Shown: positions 46-43,928 of the stretch, piece after piece
How positions within the stretch are numbered: position 1 is the first letter of the stretch
How the letters are laid out: every line of letters begins with the position of its first letter
Source of the DNA: an uncultured Flavobacteriaceae bacterium
GTDB taxonomy: Bacteria; Bacteroidota; Bacteroidia; Flavobacteriales; Flavobacteriaceae
Length of the DNA stretch: 64,000 nucleotides
Assembly: GCA_938092005.1 (NCBI GenBank)
Contig: CALKOU010000003.1
Span: 83,368-147,367, forward strand
Direction: 5' to 3'
Program-made: the position numbers and the translations under genes
The notes under the pieces: generated by a model
What the model was told of the DNA's origin: nothing
The model's input: only the letters and a program-made list of their open reading frames with translations
Database searches by the model: none

Positions 46-3000
46 CTATTCTTTAATGATCGGAAAAAGCGTTTGATTACGGGTGCTGTTGTTTGTAATT
101 TTTACAAAATACACCCCATTCGCAAGGGATGTAATGTCTTGTTGTTTCTCCCTGTTAGACCTAATAAGATTACCCATTATGTTGTATATCTCAATCTGTA
201 CATCTTCGTCAGTATCAATATAAAAGATATCTTTTGTTGGGTTAGGATACACGACAGCTTGTATCTCATACACATCATCAATACGTAACGCACATGTATC
301 GCCAACCTCATACTGAAAATACTTGGTCGTCCCAACACCGCCGGGAAATGAAAACTTAGTCCCATAGCTTATTGTCTCTCCCTCCGTAAAACCACTTAAT
401 GTTTTCGTAAAAGTGTTGTTTCCTATATCATCCATAATGGTTTCGCTAAAGGGAAATTCTCTAAACAAATAGGCGGGGGCACCTGTTTTGTCATCATCAA
501 GAAGCTCCACAGTAAACTTAACAGCGTTGCCAATGGTTTCAAACGTAAAATTATACCCAACAGAAAACTGACCCTCTCTTGCTTCTGAAGAATTAAAGGT
601 GCAGTAATAACGTTGGTTTACTGTGATTGATGCAATAGAAGAAATCGTTTCTCCACCATCATTATCGGTAGCTTTGGCCGTGATGTCATACGTACCAATA
701 GCGAGGTTCTCCCAAGAAAATGAATACGGCTGGGAAGCATCTTCACCCAACTTATTGGTGCCTTCAAAAAATTCAACTTTAGCAATGGTTCCATCAAAAT
801 CAGAAGCTGAAACTTCTATTAAAGCTGTATCTCCAGAAACAAAAACAGCACCATTTTCAGGAGCAGTTAAAGACACATTAGGAAGTGAATTGGATCCATT
901 TTGGACATTGACAAACACTTGATCTTTTGAAACATTTGTGCCCTCGGTCAAGGTTAGCTGGAGCTTATAGATACCCTGAAGAAGATTCGAAAGGTTGGTG
1001 GTTAACGATTGATTATTATCAAAACTAATTATCGATGGGCCGTAAACTTGTTCCCACGAGTAGGTTGTGTTTGCAGGGTTTGGAATAACACTTTGAGTTC
1101 CACTAAGCTGAGCTGTAGACGCTGGTATTTCAACCGTAACATTGGCACCCGCCTTTGCTATTAGTGGTGTATAACCTAAAGGGGAATCGTAAGTAAATGT
1201 TAAGTCTCCAAGGTTAAAACCGCCATTAGTAATAGCGACACGAAGAATATGCTCTCCTTCAATCAAATCAATTCCTGTTACCTCAGCAGTTGACCAATTG
1301 TCCCAAGCACCTGTTCCGCTTACATTGATATTTTCACTAACAACTTGGCCGTCTAATTCTAAATGGAAAGGACCGCCACTTGCGTTGGCAGACGCATATC
1401 GATAATTCATTTTGTAAGAACCAGATTGAGATACGTTAACGGTGTACTCTAACCATTCGCCCGCTTCAATCCACCCAATGGTTTTACCTTCGTCATCCAC
1501 AACAGCGTCAACATGTTCATCTGTTCTAAAATTTCCAGTGTCGGCACCGCTGTTTCCAGTAGTCGTGTCGTTATAGGAGACGTCTTGCCCTTTACCACCT
1601 TCAAAATAATCGTAGTTTGCTGTTTCAATGGTTCCTGGAATTTGGAATGGAGTATTCAAGTAGGGCTTTTGTTCACCAACGATTACTGAAATCGTATTAG
1701 ACACTGCAAAACCACTGCTGTTATAAATTTTAGCATAGAAACCATGCACCCCTAAGGTTAGACTTTCGACTGTTGCCGTATAGGGTGCCTCTGTATCTGT
1801 GAAGATCAATCCATCATCTCCAAAAAATGCAACTTTTGTGACGCCAGTTCCTGTAGCCTCAGCCGCAAGGTTAACACTACCTCCATTATAAGCTTCATAA
1901 AAATCAGAGGAAATGGTTCCTGACAAAGCTACATCACGATTAGTAGCCATGGAATGGGCAGGAACAGTTAATGAAAAACCGTCTGAAAAAGCAACTGTAA
2001 TGGGCGCATTAGAATAGTTATGTGCCACATAGGTTACTTCATCATTTTGTTCAAAAGCAGCCGCAATAGGATGATCGGCCGTAATGTCCGTTTTGACCGT
2101 GCCCATAGCTTTCATATTGTGTATCCAATAATAGGTATGCGCATCAGAGATACCAAACTTCAATCCTCTATCGGGATATGAATCATACAACTCTATTGCC
2201 TTGTCAGGATCAACAAATGCAGCGTAGCACCAATACACATCGTGCCATAAATTCGCGTTTTCTTGATTGGACAAAATCCCTGTATTTTGTTGCATTTCGT
2301 TCCATAATTTTTGCACGTACGACGTATTGTGACCCAAGTACAACGAACCGCCATGGATAGGATACAGCTCTATGCCGTAAGCTGCAGCTATATCAGCAGT
2401 CCAAAATGTACCGCTATCATATGAATTACCCCAAACACGAGAAGCAACACTGTAATTATATGTGTCCGAAAAAACACGCTCGTGCATATCGAACCAATAT
2501 TCTTCTACTGCTGTTTGCTCGGTAGTATATAAATAGATACCCAAGTCGCGAATAGCATCGTTTCCAGTAACAGCTCCCCAGTGAATTAATGAGGTATTAA
2601 ACTGCATACTTTCAGAAGTAGACTCCTGATCATTCCCCTGCGGAAAAGTGGCAAATCCATTTGCCCAAGCATGCCCAGCGTAAGGGCTAAAGTTTCGTAA
2701 AAATGGAAAGTCGTCGTCATTTCGATTAGAAGATGCAGCATCTCGAATAAGTGTGTTTACCATGTCGCCCCAATCATCAGCCCAACCTGGTTCAAACTGC
2801 TCAACAAAAGCGGCTGCATGAATAAAATAACCCCAATGGAAATGGTGGTCATTTATATTATTGTCTTGCCCATGACCGGCTGGATAACCAAAAAGTGTTG
2901 ACCACGTATTATTATAATAAAACAAAAAAGCTACCTCACCAGATTCGTAACTTAACCAATCTTCAAGGCGCTCTTTTACAGTTGCAATCATTTTATCTCG

Positions 3001-16028: not shown

Positions 16029-17402
16029 ATGAAAAAATTCATTCCTCTTTTTATTATACTACTGGTTTTTAGCTGTAAAGACGACTTGGATGATGCCGTT
16101 ATTGTCAATACCACTGAAAATTTAGAAGTCGAAGATTTCATCTATAAGGTTATGAACTATTGGTACTTGTGGCAAGAAGACGTCCCAAATTTGGCTGATA
16201 ATAAATTCACAAACGACAAAGACTACACCGCATTTTTACAATCTTTTGATGGGCCTAAAGCACTATACAAAGGATTGCAGTTGTCAACTGATATATTTAG
16301 CTACATCACAGATGATTATGTTGCCTTCCAAGAAAGTCAAAAAGGAATAACACTGAGCAATGGAATGGTATTTGGTTTGGTTCGGCTTTCAGAAGGCAGT
16401 TCCGAAATCTTTGGTTACGTTCGTTATGTTTTGCCCAACTCCGACGCCAAAACAAAAGGCATTGAACGTGGCGATATATTCTCGCATGTAAACGGAACAA
16501 AACTAACATACACAAACTTTGGAAATTTGTTGTTCTCCAATGCCCCCAGCTACACCCTTGACTTAGCTAACTTTAACAACAACCAAATTACAACAACAGG
16601 AGAAAGCGTAACCCTAAGTAACTCTCAGCAAACCGAACAAAGCGTACACATCGCAAAAGTAATAGAGCAGGACGGCAAAAAGGTGGGATACCTGATGTAT
16701 AACAGCTTTATTGAACCACAGGAAGACAATTTAAAAGCAGCCTTTGCCGATTTTGTAACAGCGCAAATAGACGAGCTTGTGGTAGACTTACGCTACAACA
16801 GTGGGGGAAGAGTTTCCACTGCGCAACTTCTGGCTGGACTCATAGCGGGAGAGCACGCAGGAAATATTTTTGGCAAGTTAGTTTACAACGAAAAACGAAG
16901 TGCACAAAACAGCGAAATTACCATCACCGATGCTGATGTTCAACTGGGTTTGTCCCGAGTATTTTTTCTAACTACACAAAGTTCTGCTTCGGCTAGTGAA
17001 ATGATGGTTAACGGTCTCAAGCCCTATATGAACGTGATTCAAATTGGTGATAAAACTGCTGGAAAAGATGTAGGATCAAATCCATTTTTAGATTTCATTG
17101 ACAACAAAAACACCATAAACCCAAATCACACTTACCTCATCTTACCCATTACATTCAAATACTACAATAGCGAAAATGTTGGTGACTACTCCGATGGGTT
17201 AATTCCCAGTATTGAGCTTCCAGAAATCCTTTCAAATTTGGGAGCACTCGGCGATGTAGACGAACCGCTACTTAAACGTGCATTAGATTACATAAGCGGG
17301 AAACGCACCAGTAGCTCCATAAAGGCAATTAGCAGCAGCCCGACTCCGTTTTTGGAGCTCCAATTGAAGCCAGGCAGGGCTATTTATGTTCCTGAAAACT
17401 AA
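16029..17402 (+). CDS. S41 family peptidase (tail-specific protease-like lipoprotein)
   Basis: 457 aa; lipobox FSCKDD; PDZ-like region; VVDLRYNSGGRVSTAQLLAGL and SSASASEMMVNGLKPYM catalytic pattern. Confidence 0.9.
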   Translation: MKKFIPLFIILLVFSCKDDLDDAVIVNTTENLEVEDFIYKVMNYWYLWQEDVPNLADNKFTNDKDYTAFLQSFDGPKALYKGLQLSTDIFSYITDDYVAFQESQKGITLSNGMVFGLVRLSEGSSEIFGYVRYVLPNSDAKTKGIERGDIFSHVNGTKLTYTNFGNLLFSNAPSYTLDLANFNNNQITTTGESVTLSNSQQTEQSVHIAKVIEQDGKKVGYLMYNSFIEPQEDNLKAAFADFVTAQIDELVVDLRYNSGGRVSTAQLLAGLIAGEHAGNIFGKLVYNEKRSAQNSEITITDADVQLGLSRVFFLTTQSSASASEMMVNGLKPYMNVIQIGDKTAGKDVGSNPFLDFIDNKNTINPNHTYLILPITFKYYNSENVGDYSDGLIPSIELPEILSNLGALGDVDEPLLKRALDYISGKRTSSSIKAISSSPTPFLELQLKPGRAIYVPEN

Positions 17403-19243
17403 AACGTATAGCGCAAAGCAATATTCACGTTTCGTCCTAAGGTTGTGTACCCAAAAATTTCGGTATAATCAACATCAAAAAGATTGGTAATGGCCAAATT
17501 AGCCGTTGTATTACCAATAACGTTCGGAAATGCAACACGGAAATCTACTAAAGAATAGGCCTCTAGTTTTTCTTGCTCAAAGGATTGATTTAGGTCGTAT
17601 CGTGCGCCAATATATCGCCAATGAAGTCCCCATTGTGCTTTAGTCACTGCATACCGAAGACCTATATTTGCTGCGTGTTTCGGTAGCCTAAGAGGCGATT
17701 GCGCTACTTTTTCTGTAAACGTATAATTGGCATTTAGGTTCCAGTTTTTACGTTGCCAGTTTGTTTCTACCTCTACCCCACGAACTTTGTATAACACGGC
17801 GCTGTTACGATACTGTCCTGCAAAGTTAGGGAGTGAAACAAAATCGATAAAATTATCCTCCTCACGTTGAAAAGCAACGACCGTTATACGATCGCTTTCG
17901 GACACGTATTCAACACCTAATTCAAAGGTTTCATTTTCCTCGGGCGTAAGGTCATTATTACCATAAAGGGCACTAAACATTTTGTATTGTGAAGGGGCAA
18001 TAAAAGACGTTGCCCACGATCCAAATACTTTTAGATAAGCTGCAGCTTCTAAACTGTGTACATAAAACGGATTAACTATAAAGGTTGGATGCGCGCCAAA
18101 CTCGCTGTGTATTGTACTACGAGTACTTAACTGTAATGCATAGCCCTTGGGGTGCTGCCATTGTGTACTTACAAAAACCGCTACGTTATCATGCGTATAG
18201 GTTTCAGATGAAAAAGCATTCTTAAAATCAGAATCAATATCTTGGTAAAAAACACCACTCAACAGGGTTAATTCCTCCGATGCTCGGTAGCTCCATGTAA
18301 GTTCAGCCGTAAAAATATCTGCCGTATAGTCAGACGGGAATCCATCTGCATAAGAACGAGAGCTGTCCAACCAAGAAAGTTGCGCTTGAAGGCTGGAATT
18401 CCCTTTGGTATAGGCAGGCGCAAAACCAAAACGTTTTTGCTTGCTTAAAAATGAATAATCGGCATCTGCGAAACTTGGGAAGGTGCTGTCAAAATTACCA
18501 TAAAAGCGATCTTGATGAAAAAAAGCAGACCACGCCAATGGGCCGCTATACTGGCTTTTGGCACTAAACTGAATATTTTCTTTTTCAACAGCATCTGTTT
18601 CGGTTCCAATCACGGATGACATCCCGTCTGATGTGAAGCGCTGCACGGATGCACTCAATCCAATAGCTCCCACTTGTTGTTGCACCTCCACAAACTGCTT
18701 TTCCATATTGGATAGTTTGCCTAGTTTTTGGTCTTGTATGTTTTGTGTACCCCATTCTTGAGCTACGGTAAGTTTTGTTTTAGCAGTTGAGGCTTTTTTA
18801 GTTGTGATATCAATTACAGCCGTTGCTGCACCACTACCATACAAGCTGCTGGATGCACCCTTTACAATTTCAATGGATTCAATTTGCTCGAGAGCAAGCA
18901 AACGCAAATCAAAATCCGATTCGATTTGAGAGGGGTCACTTACCACCACACCATCAATGCGTACTAGCACTTGCCGGTTGTTTCCGCCACGAATAAAATA
19001 CGACAAATTTTGCCCGGGATGCTGTTGAGCACCTGATATATATATTCCGGCGTATTGATTCAGAATTTGTGCAAGGGAAAGCCCTTTGTTTTGTGCTATT
19101 TCTTTAGCACTAATTTGTACAACAGCTTTACCGCTGTTTTTTCTTGGTTTCGAAATTCGAGAATCCGAAACAATTACTTCGTCCAATTGCTCTTGCGCAT
19201 GAACGGTACCTATACATAGCATGACTGCTATAACATATCGCAT
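17399..19243 (-). CDS. TonB-dependent receptor, BtuB-like (predicted cobalamin uptake)
   Basis: 614 aa; plug domain (EIAQNKGLSLAQILNQYAGIYISGAQQHPGQNLSYFIRGGNNRQVLVRIDGV); C-terminal beta-barrel; cobalamin riboswitch upstream. Confidence 0.9.
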   Translation of the reverse strand: MRYVIAVMLCIGTVHAQEQLDEVIVSDSRISKPRKNSGKAVVQISAKEIAQNKGLSLAQILNQYAGIYISGAQQHPGQNLSYFIRGGNNRQVLVRIDGVVVSDPSQIESDFDLRLLALEQIESIEIVKGASSSLYGSGAATAVIDITTKKASTAKTKLTVAQEWGTQNIQDQKLGKLSNMEKQFVEVQQQVGAIGLSASVQRFTSDGMSSVIGTETDAVEKENIQFSAKSQYSGPLAWSAFFHQDRFYGNFDSTFPSFADADYSFLSKQKRFGFAPAYTKGNSSLQAQLSWLDSSRSYADGFPSDYTADIFTAELTWSYRASEELTLLSGVFYQDIDSDFKNAFSSETYTHDNVAVFVSTQWQHPKGYALQLSTRSTIHSEFGAHPTFIVNPFYVHSLEAAAYLKVFGSWATSFIAPSQYKMFSALYGNNDLTPEENETFELGVEYVSESDRITVVAFQREEDNFIDFVSLPNFAGQYRNSAVLYKVRGVEVETNWQRKNWNLNANYTFTEKVAQSPLRLPKHAANIGLRYAVTKAQWGLHWRYIGARYDLNQSFEQEKLEAYSLVDFRVAFPNVIGNTTANLAITNLFDVDYTEIFGYTTLGRNVNIALRYTF

Positions 19244-39287: not shown

Positions 39288-40793
39288 ATGCTATATTTGA
39301 CAAAAAAACAGATGAGTGCTCAAGTACTGGTATTGAGCTTATTGGCATACTTTGGCTTGCTTTACATCATTTCACTAACAGTTGGAAAAAGCAACACCAA
39401 CACGGCTTTTTTTTCTGCAAACAATAAAGCCCCTTGGTACCTAGTAGCCTTCGGTATGATAGGCGCCACACTCTCTGGGCTTACTTTTGTTTCTGTTCCA
39501 GGTTGGGTTGAAAGCACCCAACTTAGCTACGTACAAATGGTACTGGGTTATGCGGTGGGCTACCTGTTTATTGCCACTGTTTTGTTACCCCTTTATTACA
39601 AATGGAATCTTGTTAGTATATACACCTATTTAAGACATCGCTTTGGATATTATGCATACAAAACAGGGGCTTCCTTTTTTATACTTTCCCGACTTACAGG
39701 AACTAGTTTGCGGCTTTTTTTAGTACTCAAAGTCATGCATTGGATTGCTTTAGACGCACTTCATGTTCCATTTTGGACAACTGCAGCACTATCCATTTTT
39801 GGCATCTGGATATATACTCAAAAGGCAGGAATTAAAACGATAATATACACAGACACCGTGCAAACGCTTTGTATGTTAATAGCACTAGGTGTTAGTATTT
39901 ATGTGCTTTATCATGAATTGAATTTAGACGTACAGTCGACATTGGGTTGGTGGAAAAATCAACCTACAACGAAATTGTTTTTTTGGAATAACTGGGGTAG
40001 TGCTCAACATTTTAGCAAGCAATTTTTAGCTGGCATACTCATTGCCTTTGCCATGACTGGACTCGATCAAGAAATGATGCAAAAAAATTTAAGTTGTAGA
40101 TCCCTTAAGGATGCACAAAAAAACATGCTTTGGTTTACTGTTGCTCTTGTAATAATTACAATGTTATTTTTAATTCTAGGTGTGTTTCTAACTGCATATG
40201 CGCAGACCACAGGAATTACTGCTACAGGAGATCATCTTTTTCCTTTTATAGCCACTCAATCGGGATTGAGCGAAGTATTGAGCTATGTATTTGTTTTTGG
40301 ACTGATCGCTGCTGCTTTTAGTAGTGCAGACAGTTCACTCACTTCGCTCACCACAAGTGTTAGTATCGATATTTGGGATATCAAAGAAGGTACAAAAGGT
40401 GTGAAACAACGTAAAAAAATTCACGTCATCATGGCACTAGTTCTGTGGACTTGCATGGTTTGTTTTTATTATCTGGTAGAAAACGAGAGCGTAATACAAC
40501 AACTGTTACTGTTCGCAGGATACACCTATGGTCCATTGCTTGGCTTGTATTTGCTAGGTATCTTTTCTAAACGCACTACTCGTGACGAATGGGCACCATA
40601 TATTTGTGTGGCGGCACCTGTTTTAACTTATGTAATAGCAACCTACAGCAAAATCATATTGGGGTACGACTTTGGATTTTTTGTGCTTGCGCTCAATGGT
40701 GGAATAACAATGCTATTGTTGTGGATTTCGGGGATCGGATTACCAATGTATCAAGGTGCTTCCCCAGGTAAAACCACTACCAAAAGCAGCTAG
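39288..40793 (+). CDS. Sodium:solute symporter family protein
   Basis: 501 aa, about 13 TM helices; SSF pattern [16 protein letters not shown]...[26 protein letters not shown]. True start may be ATG 39312 (MSAQVLVLS). Confidence 0.88.
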
Positions 40794-41747
40794 TAACACG
40801 GTATCACCCTCCTTAATTTTTCCTTCTCCCCATGCTTCAGAAAGTGCAATAGGAATAGATGCAGCTGTAGTATTCCCATAACGCATGATGTTGTTATAAA
40901 CCTGATCATCGCGTAGGCTAAATTTCTTTTGCACAAACTGGGCAATTCGTAAATTAGCCTGATGTGGGATAAATAAATCGATATCGGAAGTGTTTTTTCC
41001 ATTTTTTTGTAATGCCTCTTGAATCACTTCGCTAAAACGCACAACGGCATTCTTAAACACCAATTGTCCATTCATATAAGGATGGTACCGCATATCATCT
41101 TCGTCATAGTCAGCAACAATTTCTGGAATCCACTGCTTTGTACTTGGCCCAATAATCGCCAGTTCTTCGGCATGTTTCCCTTCAGAATACAAATGCGTGG
41201 ATTGAATCCCTTTGGAGGTATCTTCTTCACGAGTAAGCACAGCAGCTCCTGCGCCATCCCCAAAAATGACCGAAACCGTACGTCCACGAGTAGTAAAATC
41301 CATACCGCCCGAGTGATACTCTGAACCTACAAGTAATACGTTTTTATACATTCCTGTTTTAATGAATTGATCCGCTACAGAAAGTCCATAAATAAATCCA
41401 GAACACTGGTTACGTATATCGAGCGCAGGACAAGTTCCCATACCCATCATGTCTTGTAATAATACTCCTGAACCAGGAAAGTATAAATCTGGACTCAGGG
41501 TAGCAAAAATGACAAGCTCAATGTCGTCTTTTGAAATCCCTGCACGGTCAAGTGCCATCTCAGCAGCCTTTACGCCCATGGAAGCAGTACCCTCCCCAGA
41601 ATCTTTTTTAATGAATCGACGTTCTTTAATTCCAGTGCGTTCTGTAATCCATTCGTCGTTGGTATCCATAAGTTTAGATAAATCGTCGTTTGTAACAATA
41701 TTTTCTGGAACAAAATGACCAAGACCTGCAATACGGGAGTGATACAT
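40740..41747 (-). CDS. fabH: 3-oxoacyl-ACP synthase III (FabH-like)
   Basis: 335 aa; NEWITERTGIKERR, ALDIRNQCSGFIYGLSVA, PHQANLRI, GNTTAASIP. Confidence 0.94.
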   Translation of the reverse strand: MYHSRIAGLGHFVPENIVTNDDLSKLMDTNDEWITERTGIKERRFIKKDSGEGTASMGVKAAEMALDRAGISKDDIELVIFATLSPDLYFPGSGVLLQDMMGMGTCPALDIRNQCSGFIYGLSVADQFIKTGMYKNVLLVGSEYHSGGMDFTTRGRTVSVIFGDGAGAAVLTREEDTSKGIQSTHLYSEGKHAEELAIIGPSTKQWIPEIVADYDEDDMRYHPYMNGQLVFKNAVVRFSEVIQEALQKNGKNTSDIDLFIPHQANLRIAQFVQKKFSLRDDQVYNNIMRYGNTTAASIPIALSEAWGEGKIKEGDTVLLAAFGSGFTWGSTLIHW

Positions 41748-41790
41748 ATTTAATAAAATTTAAAAGCAATTAACGAAATAAATATGGCAT

Positions 41791-41826
41791 AAAAAAAAGA
41801 AGGTGCAACAACCACGATGCACCTTC
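41791..41826 (-). terminator. Strong intrinsic terminator upstream of fabH, at the end of a candidate leader/sRNA
   Basis: GAAGGTGCA (41799-41807) - 10 nt - TGCACCTTC (41818-41826), perfect 9-bp stem followed on the minus strand by T8. Confidence 0.85.
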
Positions 41827-41843
41827 GAACAACTTAACCAAAA

Positions 41844-41879
41844 TTAAACAAACCAATAAAAAGGAATGTGTGTAATCAT
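41844..41879 (-). other. Candidate leader-peptide mini-ORF MITHIPFYWFV*
   Basis: ATG ATT ACA CAC ATT CCT TTT TAT TGG TTT GTT TAA; its stop lies 17 nt before the terminator hairpin. Confidence 0.4.
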
Positions 41880-41932
41880 AAGAGTTTCATAGCAATTTTC
41901 TCCGCAACAAATTTTGTTGATTGATTACTCCA

Positions 41933-41962
41933 CAAATATAAAAATGTTTAATAAAAAAACAA
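41933..41962 (-). promoter_or_regulatory. Bacteroidetes-type sigma-A promoter reading toward fabH
   Basis: TTG (41960-41962) - N19 - TATATTTG (41933-41940) on the minus strand. Confidence 0.7.
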
Positions 41963-42047
41963 ATTATTTAAACAAAATATTTTTATGCCATCCTGTCAGC
42001 CCGTTTATTTTGGTACTTTTTTTGAAATAGATTTAAAAACAAAAATT

Positions 42048-43928
42048 ATGGCATCCGGTAAAATAAATGTTGCAGTAGAAAACATATTCCCGTTAATTAA
42101 AAAATTCCTTTACAGTGATCACGAAATTTTCTTGCGTGAGCTCATTTCAAATGCTACAGACGCTACACTAAAGCTCAAGCATCTCACCAACATTGGCGAA
42201 GCCAAAGTAGCCTATGGCGATCCACATATTGAAGTCAAAGTAGATAAGGAAAATCGAACCCTTCATGTTATTGATCAAGGACTTGGCATGACAGCCGATG
42301 AGGTAAACAAATACATCAATGAAGTTGCCTTTTCTGGAGCTGAGGAATTTATCAACCAATATAAAGACAGTGCTAAAGACAGCGGTATTATTGGTCATTT
42401 TGGTCTTGGGTTTTACTCGGCCTTTATGGTAGCAGAAAAGGTTGAAATCATCACCAAGTCTCACAAAGACGGCGCAGCAGCACACTGGACGTGTGACGGT
42501 TCTCCAGAATACACACTAGTGGAACATGACAAAACGGAGCGTGGAACAGAAATCATCTTACATATTGACAACGAGTCTGATGAATTTTTGGAAGAAGGGC
42601 GTATTCAGGAGCTACTTACGAAGTATAATAAGTTTATGCCCATCCCTATCAAGTTTGGAACACGTGAAGAAACGCGCGAGGAAGGGGAAGGCGATGACAA
42701 GAAAGAGGTAAAAGAAGTAGTCACTAATATTATCAATAATCCTTCACCCGCTTGGACCAAAAAGCCAAGTGATTTAAAAGATGAAGATTACAAAGGATTT
42801 TATCGCGAGTTATACCCCATGCAGTTTGAAGAGCCTTTGTTTCACATTCACCTAAATGTAGACTATCCCTTTAATCTGACTGGTGTATTATATTTTCCAA
42901 AATTGAATAACGAGCTTAATGTTCAAAAAGATCGTATTCAACTTTATCAGAATCAAGTTTTTGTAACGGATAATGTTGAGGGAATTGTGCCCGAATTTTT
43001 AACCATGCTTAGAGGGGTTATCGATTCGCCAGATATTCCACTTAACGTTTCAAGAAGTTACCTTCAAGCCGACGGTGCAGTAAAAAAAATCAGTAACTAC
43101 ATTACCAAAAAAGTGGCAGATAAACTGCAGTCCATTTTCAAAAACGATCGTGAAAATTTAGAACAAAAATGGAACGACATCAAAGTAGTTATTGAATATG
43201 GAATGCTTTCGGAAGATAAGTTCTACGATAAGGCAAAGAAGTTTAACCTCTTTCCTACTACAGACGGCACCTATTTAACCCTTGACGAGTTAAAAGAGCA
43301 AACCAAAGATGCGCAAACAGACAAAGATGGTAAACTCATCCAACTCTATGCCGCTAATGTGGATGAGCAGCATGCATACATAGAGGAAGCTAAAAGCAAA
43401 GGATACAAAGTACTTTTGTTAGACTCTCCTATTGTTGGACACTTATTGCAAAAACTAGAGCAAGAAGACGACAAACTTGGTTTTGTTCGTGTGGATAGCG
43501 ATCATATTGATAAACTCATAAACAAAGATGAACCACAACTTTCAAAGCTTTCCGATGAACAAAAGGAAACCTTAAAACCATTGATTGAAAACGTGGTGCC
43601 GAAAGAACAATATACTGTTCAACTCGAGGCTATGGACAGTGAGGCTGCTCCATTCATTATCACGCAGCCAGAATTTATGCGACGCATGAAAGAAATGCAA
43701 CAGACTGGCGGTGGTGGTGGTATGTTTGGGGGTGGATTCCCTGACATGTACCAACTGGTGGTAAACGTAAACAACCCACTCGTGAGTCAAATTTTGGAAA
43801 CCAAAACCAAGAAAAAACAAGAACGACTTATTAAGCAATCGCTTGATTTGGCGCGTTTGTCACAGTCCTTACTCAAAGGAGAAGAGCTTACCGCATTTAT
43901 TAAGCGAAGCTTTGAAATGATTAAATAA
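42048..43928 (+). CDS. htpG: Molecular chaperone HtpG (Hsp90)
   Basis: MASGKINVAVENIFPLIKKFLYSDHEIFLRELISNATDA; IGHFGLGFYSAFMV; start shifted from 41985. Confidence 0.97.
   Translation: MASGKINVAVENIFPLIKKFLYSDHEIFLRELISNATDATLKLKHLTNIGEAKVAYGDPHIEVKVDKENRTLHVIDQGLGMTADEVNKYINEVAFSGAEEFINQYKDSAKDSGIIGHFGLGFYSAFMVAEKVEIITKSHKDGAAAHWTCDGSPEYTLVEHDKTERGTEIILHIDNESDEFLEEGRIQELLTKYNKFMPIPIKFGTREETREEGEGDDKKEVKEVVTNIINNPSPAWTKKPSDLKDEDYKGFYRELYPMQFEEPLFHIHLNVDYPFNLTGVLYFPKLNNELNVQKDRIQLYQNQVFVTDNVEGIVPEFLTMLRGVIDSPDIPLNVSRSYLQADGAVKKISNYITKKVADKLQSIFKNDRENLEQKWNDIKVVIEYGMLSEDKFYDKAKKFNLFPTTDGTYLTLDELKEQTKDAQTDKDGKLIQLYAANVDEQHAYIEEAKSKGYKVLLLDSPIVGHLLQKLEQEDDKLGFVRVDSDHIDKLINKDEPQLSKLSDEQKETLKPLIENVVPKEQYTVQLEAMDSEAAPFIITQPEFMRRMKEMQQTGGGGGMFGGGFPDMYQLVVNVNNPLVSQILETKTKKKQERLIKQSLDLARLSQSLLKGEELTAFIKRSFEMIK

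Follow-up and report, generated by a model that had tools for sequence, protein, structure and literature searches.

The window analysed here, a stretch of 64,000 nucleotides of DNA from an uncultured Flavobacteriaceae bacterium, contains a short transcription unit on the minus strand between htpG and fabH. The first-pass annotation had described this unit as a promoter, a mini-ORF and a terminator, with htpG diverging from it, and these elements are where it placed them: TTG-N19-TATATTTG occupies 41962-41933 on the minus strand, a 9-bp stem followed by T8 precedes the fabH start at 41747, and the htpG start codon at 42048 reads in the opposite direction. The key feature of the locus is one that this annotation did not contain, an inverted repeat overlapping the promoter that is the operator of a light regulon. 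The features, in the order in which they are met when reading from htpG towards fabH, are as follows.

42048..43928, plus strand: htpG, the divergent neighbour, with its ATG at 42048
41945..41974, minus strand: operator TGTTTAA-N16-TTAAACA, a wide inverted repeat that overlaps the small RNA (sRNA) promoter at its -33 region
41960..41962, minus strand: TTG of the -33 box, separated from the -7 box by a 19-nt spacer
41933..41940, minus strand: -7 promoter box TATATTTG, read from the sequence and kept in the genus alignment
41791..41927, minus strand: predicted small RNA of about 135 nt, its start placed from the -7 box and its end from the T-tract
41868..41928, minus strand: 5' domain of the sRNA, a GUAAUCA/UGAUUAC closing helix around CAACA..UGUUG and GAG..CUC hairpins
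41885..41895, minus strand: conserved loop UUGCUAUGAAA, which includes the AUG of the mini-ORF, identified by family-wide comparison
41890-41876, minus strand: mini-ORF ATG AAA CTC TTA TGA
41879-41844, minus strand: ATGATTACACACATTCCTTTTTATTGGTTTGTTTAA, overlapping the mini-ORF
41827..41859, minus strand: core UUAUUGGUUUGUUUAAUUUUGGUUAAGUUGUUC (elsewhere UUGGUUUGUUUAUUUAUUGGUUAGGUUGUUU), mostly unpaired, a candidate interaction region
41791..41826, minus strand: intrinsic terminator with a 9-bp stem, a 10-nt loop UCGUGGUUGU and T8
41766..41784, minus strand: candidate separate fabH promoter TATTTATTTCGTT, between the terminator and fabH
40740..41747, minus strand: fabH (KAS III), the downstream neighbour in the window's genus, with its ATG at 41747

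Taken as a single sequence, this locus provides weak evidence for a gene. The promoter had been singled out as an exact match to the Bacteroidetes consensus, which it is; the match carries little weight, however, as TTG-N19-TAnnTTTG occurs three times in the 64-kb window against an expectation of 1.5 ± 1.1, and the TTG of the -33 box is kept within the genus and not outside it (e.g., L043 and L063). For the 140 nt, the predicted fold has only mild stability (z = -1.65), and the hairpin, which has perfect stem arms GAAGGTGCA and TGCACCTTC at 41826-41799 followed by T8 at 41798-41791 on the minus strand, is not listed by a generic terminator scan because its loop is longer than the limit of that scan. 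We accept the transcription unit as real because it is conserved, and not because of the promoter match alone.

This conservation is evident within the genus. Besides the window's own genome, 16 others of the genus were examined, and the unit was found in every one; an alignment of the intergenic regions, which had been proposed as a check on the locus, together with DNA searches showed that promoter, hairpin and T-tract are all kept in 18 of 18 loci from 17 genomes. Across these 18 loci, the core and terminator that make up the 3' half of the RNA (with the loop counted in) are on average 97% identical between pairs. The corresponding figures are about 74% at the start of fabH and 68% between the terminator and fabH; the third codon positions of fabH are about 46% identical, a slightly understated value given that some sequences end early. 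Constraint on the 3' half of the RNA exceeds that on the adjacent coding sequence. The 5' domain is variable, and its closing helix GUAAUCA/UGAUUAC is 97% paired in the 18 sequences and includes two doubly changed pairs, a modest level of covariation.

A covariance model built from the genus sequences matched 50 of 400 Flavobacteriaceae genomes, nearly always once per genome, and a second model (R2), for which 27 diverse sequences were used, extended this to 156 of the 400 genomes and 106 of 237 genera. Named carriers include Maribacter, Muricauda/Flagellimonas, Galbibacter, Cellulophaga, Aequorivita, Croceivirga and Eudoraea; the presumed Flavobacterium genus (g148) yielded only a few weak matches to the model, and these were without the operator. 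Beyond Flavobacteriaceae the second model found almost nothing, with order-level matches near background. BLAST matches in other families (L018 and L019) were discarded as AT-rich chance matches, and one further locus (L038) is probably a false positive. Judging from these model matches, the RNA family is widespread in marine Flavobacteriaceae. Searches of Rfam 15 with the whole window, with the element at a relaxed threshold and with the relatives produced no match for the RNA near the gathering score; Flavo-1 (RF01705), which had been suggested for comparison, is likewise a small structured RNA of flavobacteria, and the window element does not match it. One related locus (L027) does carry a Flavo-1 element (272-347, minus strand, 58.9 bits), near the sRNA locus and separate from it.

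Across the family, the shared parts of the RNA are a hairpin that presents the UUGCUAUGAAA loop on a changing stem, the core UUGGUUUGUUUAUUUAUUGGUUAGGUUGUUU and a covarying terminator. The terminator stem has 49 doubly changed cells compared to 22 ± 4 in shuffled alignments, and none of 500 shuffles reached as high a value. The stems flanking the UUGCUAUGAAA loop average 9.2 bp across 103 loci, compared to 7.1 bp in shuffles, and GCTATGAAA was seen in nearly all family members, although conservation of the loop motif must be read with the knowledge that the search pattern itself demanded it. The core is nearly invariant across the family.

The genes surrounding the RNA are less constant. In most relatives htpG is the divergent neighbour, while downstream the RNA is followed by fabH, by a TetR-ABC1 pair, by a HAD gene or by a gene in the opposite orientation; fabH follows it in only part of the loci, and promoter, operator and terminator are kept as a unit whichever gene comes next. 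In two loci (L042 and L049) the operator-RNA unit lies after ABC1 and not beside htpG. In five others (L030, L045, L101, L106 and L108) the RNA core and terminator form a 3' UTR directly behind the ABC1 kinase gene, and in all five of these genomes (extended loci L263-L267) an operator with no or one mismatch lies between htpG and tetR, so the RNA lies behind the same switch in both architectures. Three of these genomes (G390, G388 and G214; L045 with L263, L106 with L266 and L108 with L267) have the gene order htpG, operator, tetR, ABC1, RNA, fabH. Loss of tetR-ABC1 from such an order would leave operator, RNA and fabH side by side, which would account for the position of fabH behind the RNA in the window's genus.

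Separately, a similar tail, GGUUGGUUUGUUUAGUUGGUUAGUUNGG followed by a terminator, closes Hsp20 genes of other flavobacteria (L104, approximately 1540-1610; L115, approximately 1540-1600), which suggests a shared 3'-UTR or sRNA module. An isocitrate-lyase-like gene (L105, approximately 1560-1610) has AUUGGUUAG before its terminator; this is a weak match to the model and possibly due to chance.

The first-pass annotation left two possibilities standing, a free-standing sRNA or a fabH leader. The sRNA reading gains from the presence of the RNA in more than 100 genera, its covarying terminator and the variety of genes downstream; attenuation of fabH as a main function does not hold up, because the downstream gene varies, there is no leader peptide and the module is also found behind ABC1. 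A broader form of the leader hypothesis, in which conditional read-through of the terminator sets expression of whichever gene follows (fabH here, TetR-ABC1 elsewhere), deserves consideration: only about 43 nt separate the end of the terminator from fabH, TetR-ABC1 follows the RNA in the same direction in many relatives, and in one genome (G241) tetR has no second operator, so that read-through could feed the tetR-ABC1 operon. We nevertheless regard a cis-acting leader as unlikely. In addition to the varying downstream gene and the position behind ABC1, we identified no conserved leader peptide, no match to an Rfam riboswitch or T-box and no convincing anti-terminator pairing; fabH has a promoter-like element of its own, the TTTYGTT of which is kept in 18 of 18 genus loci; and the conservation of loop and core exceeds what termination alone needs. 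A candidate leader peptide with aromatic residues (MITHIPFYWFV) is not conserved. A candidate anti-terminator pairing of CACnnCCUU with the terminator arm was also rejected; the CCU block stays where the terminator lacks a partner for it, and a small local hairpin is therefore the better explanation. Read-through into the next gene may be a secondary possibility alongside an sRNA acting in trans.

A second alternative concerns the loop. The mini-ORF is indeed present in the window, but its frame and length vary across the genus and family and no leader peptide is conserved; over 103 loci, the ORF that begins at the conserved AUG varies in length around a median of 7 codons, and in one third of loci it has only 2-3 codons. 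One may postulate that ribosome binding at the AUGAAA loop is itself the functional event and that the mini-ORF is dispensable, which would make this a dual-function or decoy RNA. The very short ORFs fit this scenario, as does the fact that, within the 5' domain, conservation is highest at UUGCUAUGAAA, whose A-rich flanks resemble a Bacteroidetes start site. On the other hand, ORF length and frame vary freely, a hairpin-loop position would suit a protein- or RNA-binding site equally well, and the loop motif was required by the search pattern; we consider this scenario quite improbable.

For an sRNA acting in trans, the conserved unpaired core is most likely the point of contact with targets or with an RNA-binding protein. 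Complements of 13 nt of the core were found at 7 sites in this genome compared to 5 for reversed-pattern controls, and at 1 site compared to 7 in a second genome (G241), with no excess in either. Long-seed pairing is therefore unsupported, while pairing through a short seed or binding by a protein is possible.

The operator TGTTTAA-N16-TTAAACA is exact in 52 of 103 distinct RNA loci and has at most one mismatch in 89 of 103, compared to 2 of 2060 shuffled flanks with at most one mismatch; the spacing of exact operators is N16 with a single N17 exception, and TAnnTTT typically sits 5 nt after the operator in relatives. About 6% of canonical RNA loci have an operator with at least three mismatches, and a few non-canonical loci (L030 and L045) lack a recognisable one. 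Only four sites in the whole of the window's own genome come within one mismatch of the operator, and two of these are exact. Apart from the one at the sRNA, they lie ahead of a MerR-B12 gene that has crtB (phytoene synthase) and crtZ behind it (L246/L253), an SRPBCC-SDR-photolyase operon (L254, 1501-1530) and msrA-folE (L051, 1501-1530), where crtB, crtZ, folE and the photolyase were named from sequence and not by domain search. The sites identified in five complete relatives stand in front of crtI, photolyase operons, tetR-ABC1, nth/bcp, fasciclin and redox genes as well as the sRNA, and only a few fall inside unrelated genes. The operator is common to the sRNA, the regulator gene and light-response genes.

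The operator might instead belong to htpG, which adjoins it in most loci, with the sRNA promoter sharing it by chance. This is very unlikely: in the two loci where the operator-RNA unit follows ABC1 it lies away from htpG, the spacing from operator to the -7 box of the sRNA is typically fixed, and htpG has a separate sigma-54-like promoter at 42010-42027, with a TTGGTAC-N-TTTG element. A sigma-54-like htpG promoter has also been reported in F. psychrophilum (PMC9723704). Alongside this element, an inverted repeat, TGCCATCCTGTCA, precedes htpG in the window (41986-42027, plus strand), and similar TGACAnnnTGnCA repeats are found before htpG in many relatives.

The notion that the conserved 3' half is a gene for a small membrane protein, one frame of which reads LLVCLILVKLFEGASWLLHL, is scarcely credible even though an ATG frame spans this half in three loci (L009, L010 and L011) and a few of the substitutions within the genus are synonymous, as most genus members lack an ATG start in the frame, the frame is broken by 1-nt indels (L011 and L016) and by an extra base in most other genera, and the stretch includes the terminator stem, with synonymous positions conserved like the rest. 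Frames differ between species and 1-nt indels cross the conserved block; because of these frameshifts we reject protein-coding readings. The RNA is non-coding, lacking a conserved reading frame.

The likely controller is the MerR protein encoded next to crtB and crtZ. Domain searches identified MerR and B12-binding domains in this protein, and it matches CarH structures (5c8d and 3whp). The residues with which CarH binds adenosylcobalamin (AdoCbl) are a tryptophan, a glutamate and two histidines (PMC11796333), and all four residues are kept in the MerR protein. Most same-genus loci have an operator immediately before merR itself (0-2 mismatches wherever the sequence reaches far enough upstream), as expected for autoregulation. 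Of the 400 family genomes, 105 have a strong match to the RNA (E at most 1e-6), and 104 of these encode a MerR-B12 protein, compared to 192 of the 295 others; these are raw counts that ignore kinship. Given the autoregulatory position, the regulon content and this co-occurrence, we infer that the MerR-B12 protein acts at the sRNA operator. CarH is described as a tetramer that, when loaded with B12, binds DNA in the dark and releases it in the light (PMC4557120), and by analogy the flavobacterial MerR protein would behave in the same way.

Elsewhere in the window, a cobalamin riboswitch (RF00174; 19291-19479, minus strand, 100.6 bits) lies upstream of a gene for a TonB-dependent receptor (17399-19243), presumably a B12 importer. 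This is worth recording given the B12-dependent light regulator encoded elsewhere in the genome.

The explanation that we consider probable is that 41791-41974 on the minus strand is a free-standing sRNA gene of about 135 nt that belongs to the regulon of a B12 photoreceptor and acts in trans. In the dark, a CarH/LitR-type MerR-B12 photoreceptor probably sits on TGTTTAA-N16-TTAAACA, so that the promoter is blocked and no RNA is made. In the light, adenosylcobalamin would be photolysed and the repressor would dissociate. The switch of the sRNA promoter is that of the light-protection genes, and the RNA is therefore probably made in the light; it would be produced alongside the photolyase, carotenoid and methionine-sulfoxide/folate-repair enzymes and end at the terminator. 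The predicted folded RNA would consist of the 5' domain with its UUGCUAUGAAA loop, the unpaired G/U-rich core and the terminator, and most likely works in trans, with the core pairing to its targets. Some genera instead carry this 3' module as the 3' UTR of an operator-controlled TetR-ABC1 operon.

Trans-acting sRNAs of stress and light regulons are known in other bacteria, such as PcrZ of Rhodobacter, and resemble the window RNA in being short and intergenic, governed by a stress or light factor, ended by an intrinsic terminator and equipped with a conserved unpaired region. Compared by description only, the window RNA differs from these in its predicted controller, a B12-dependent MerR photoreceptor, and in its Bacteroidetes hosts. 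It shares with the CarH/LitR regulon the AdoCbl residues of the regulator, the carotenoid neighbours and an operator common to photolyase and carotenoid genes and the sRNA; in the literature that we searched, however, we found no sRNA described in that regulon and no prior account of the operator in Flavobacteriaceae. A 2021 transcriptome of F. psychrophilum reports conserved sRNAs, notably Rfp18, on which metalloprotease expression is reported to depend and which is conserved across the genus Flavobacterium (PMC9723704); as described there, Rfp18 and the other Rfp sRNAs resemble the window RNA in their family-level host, their conservation and their stable stem-loops. The sRNA family is real, widespread and, with Rfp18 compared by description only, apparently undescribed, and it is new in its membership and regulon and not in kind.

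Sunlight is part of the habitat of marine flavobacteria, which are major consumers of algal carbon, and to our knowledge few small RNAs have been described from them. At about even confidence, we propose that a light-switched sRNA found across the family forms the RNA arm of the CarH/LitR response and moves between two settings, a gene of its own and the 3' UTR of a co-regulated TetR-ABC1 operon, with core and terminator perhaps a shared sRNA module of flavobacteria. With a covariance model available for the family, a B12-dependent light sensor as its predicted controller and many hosts that can be cultured, a light-controlled post-transcriptional response is directly testable. If this proposal is correct, a photoreceptor regulon for which we found only protein outputs described would gain an RNA output.
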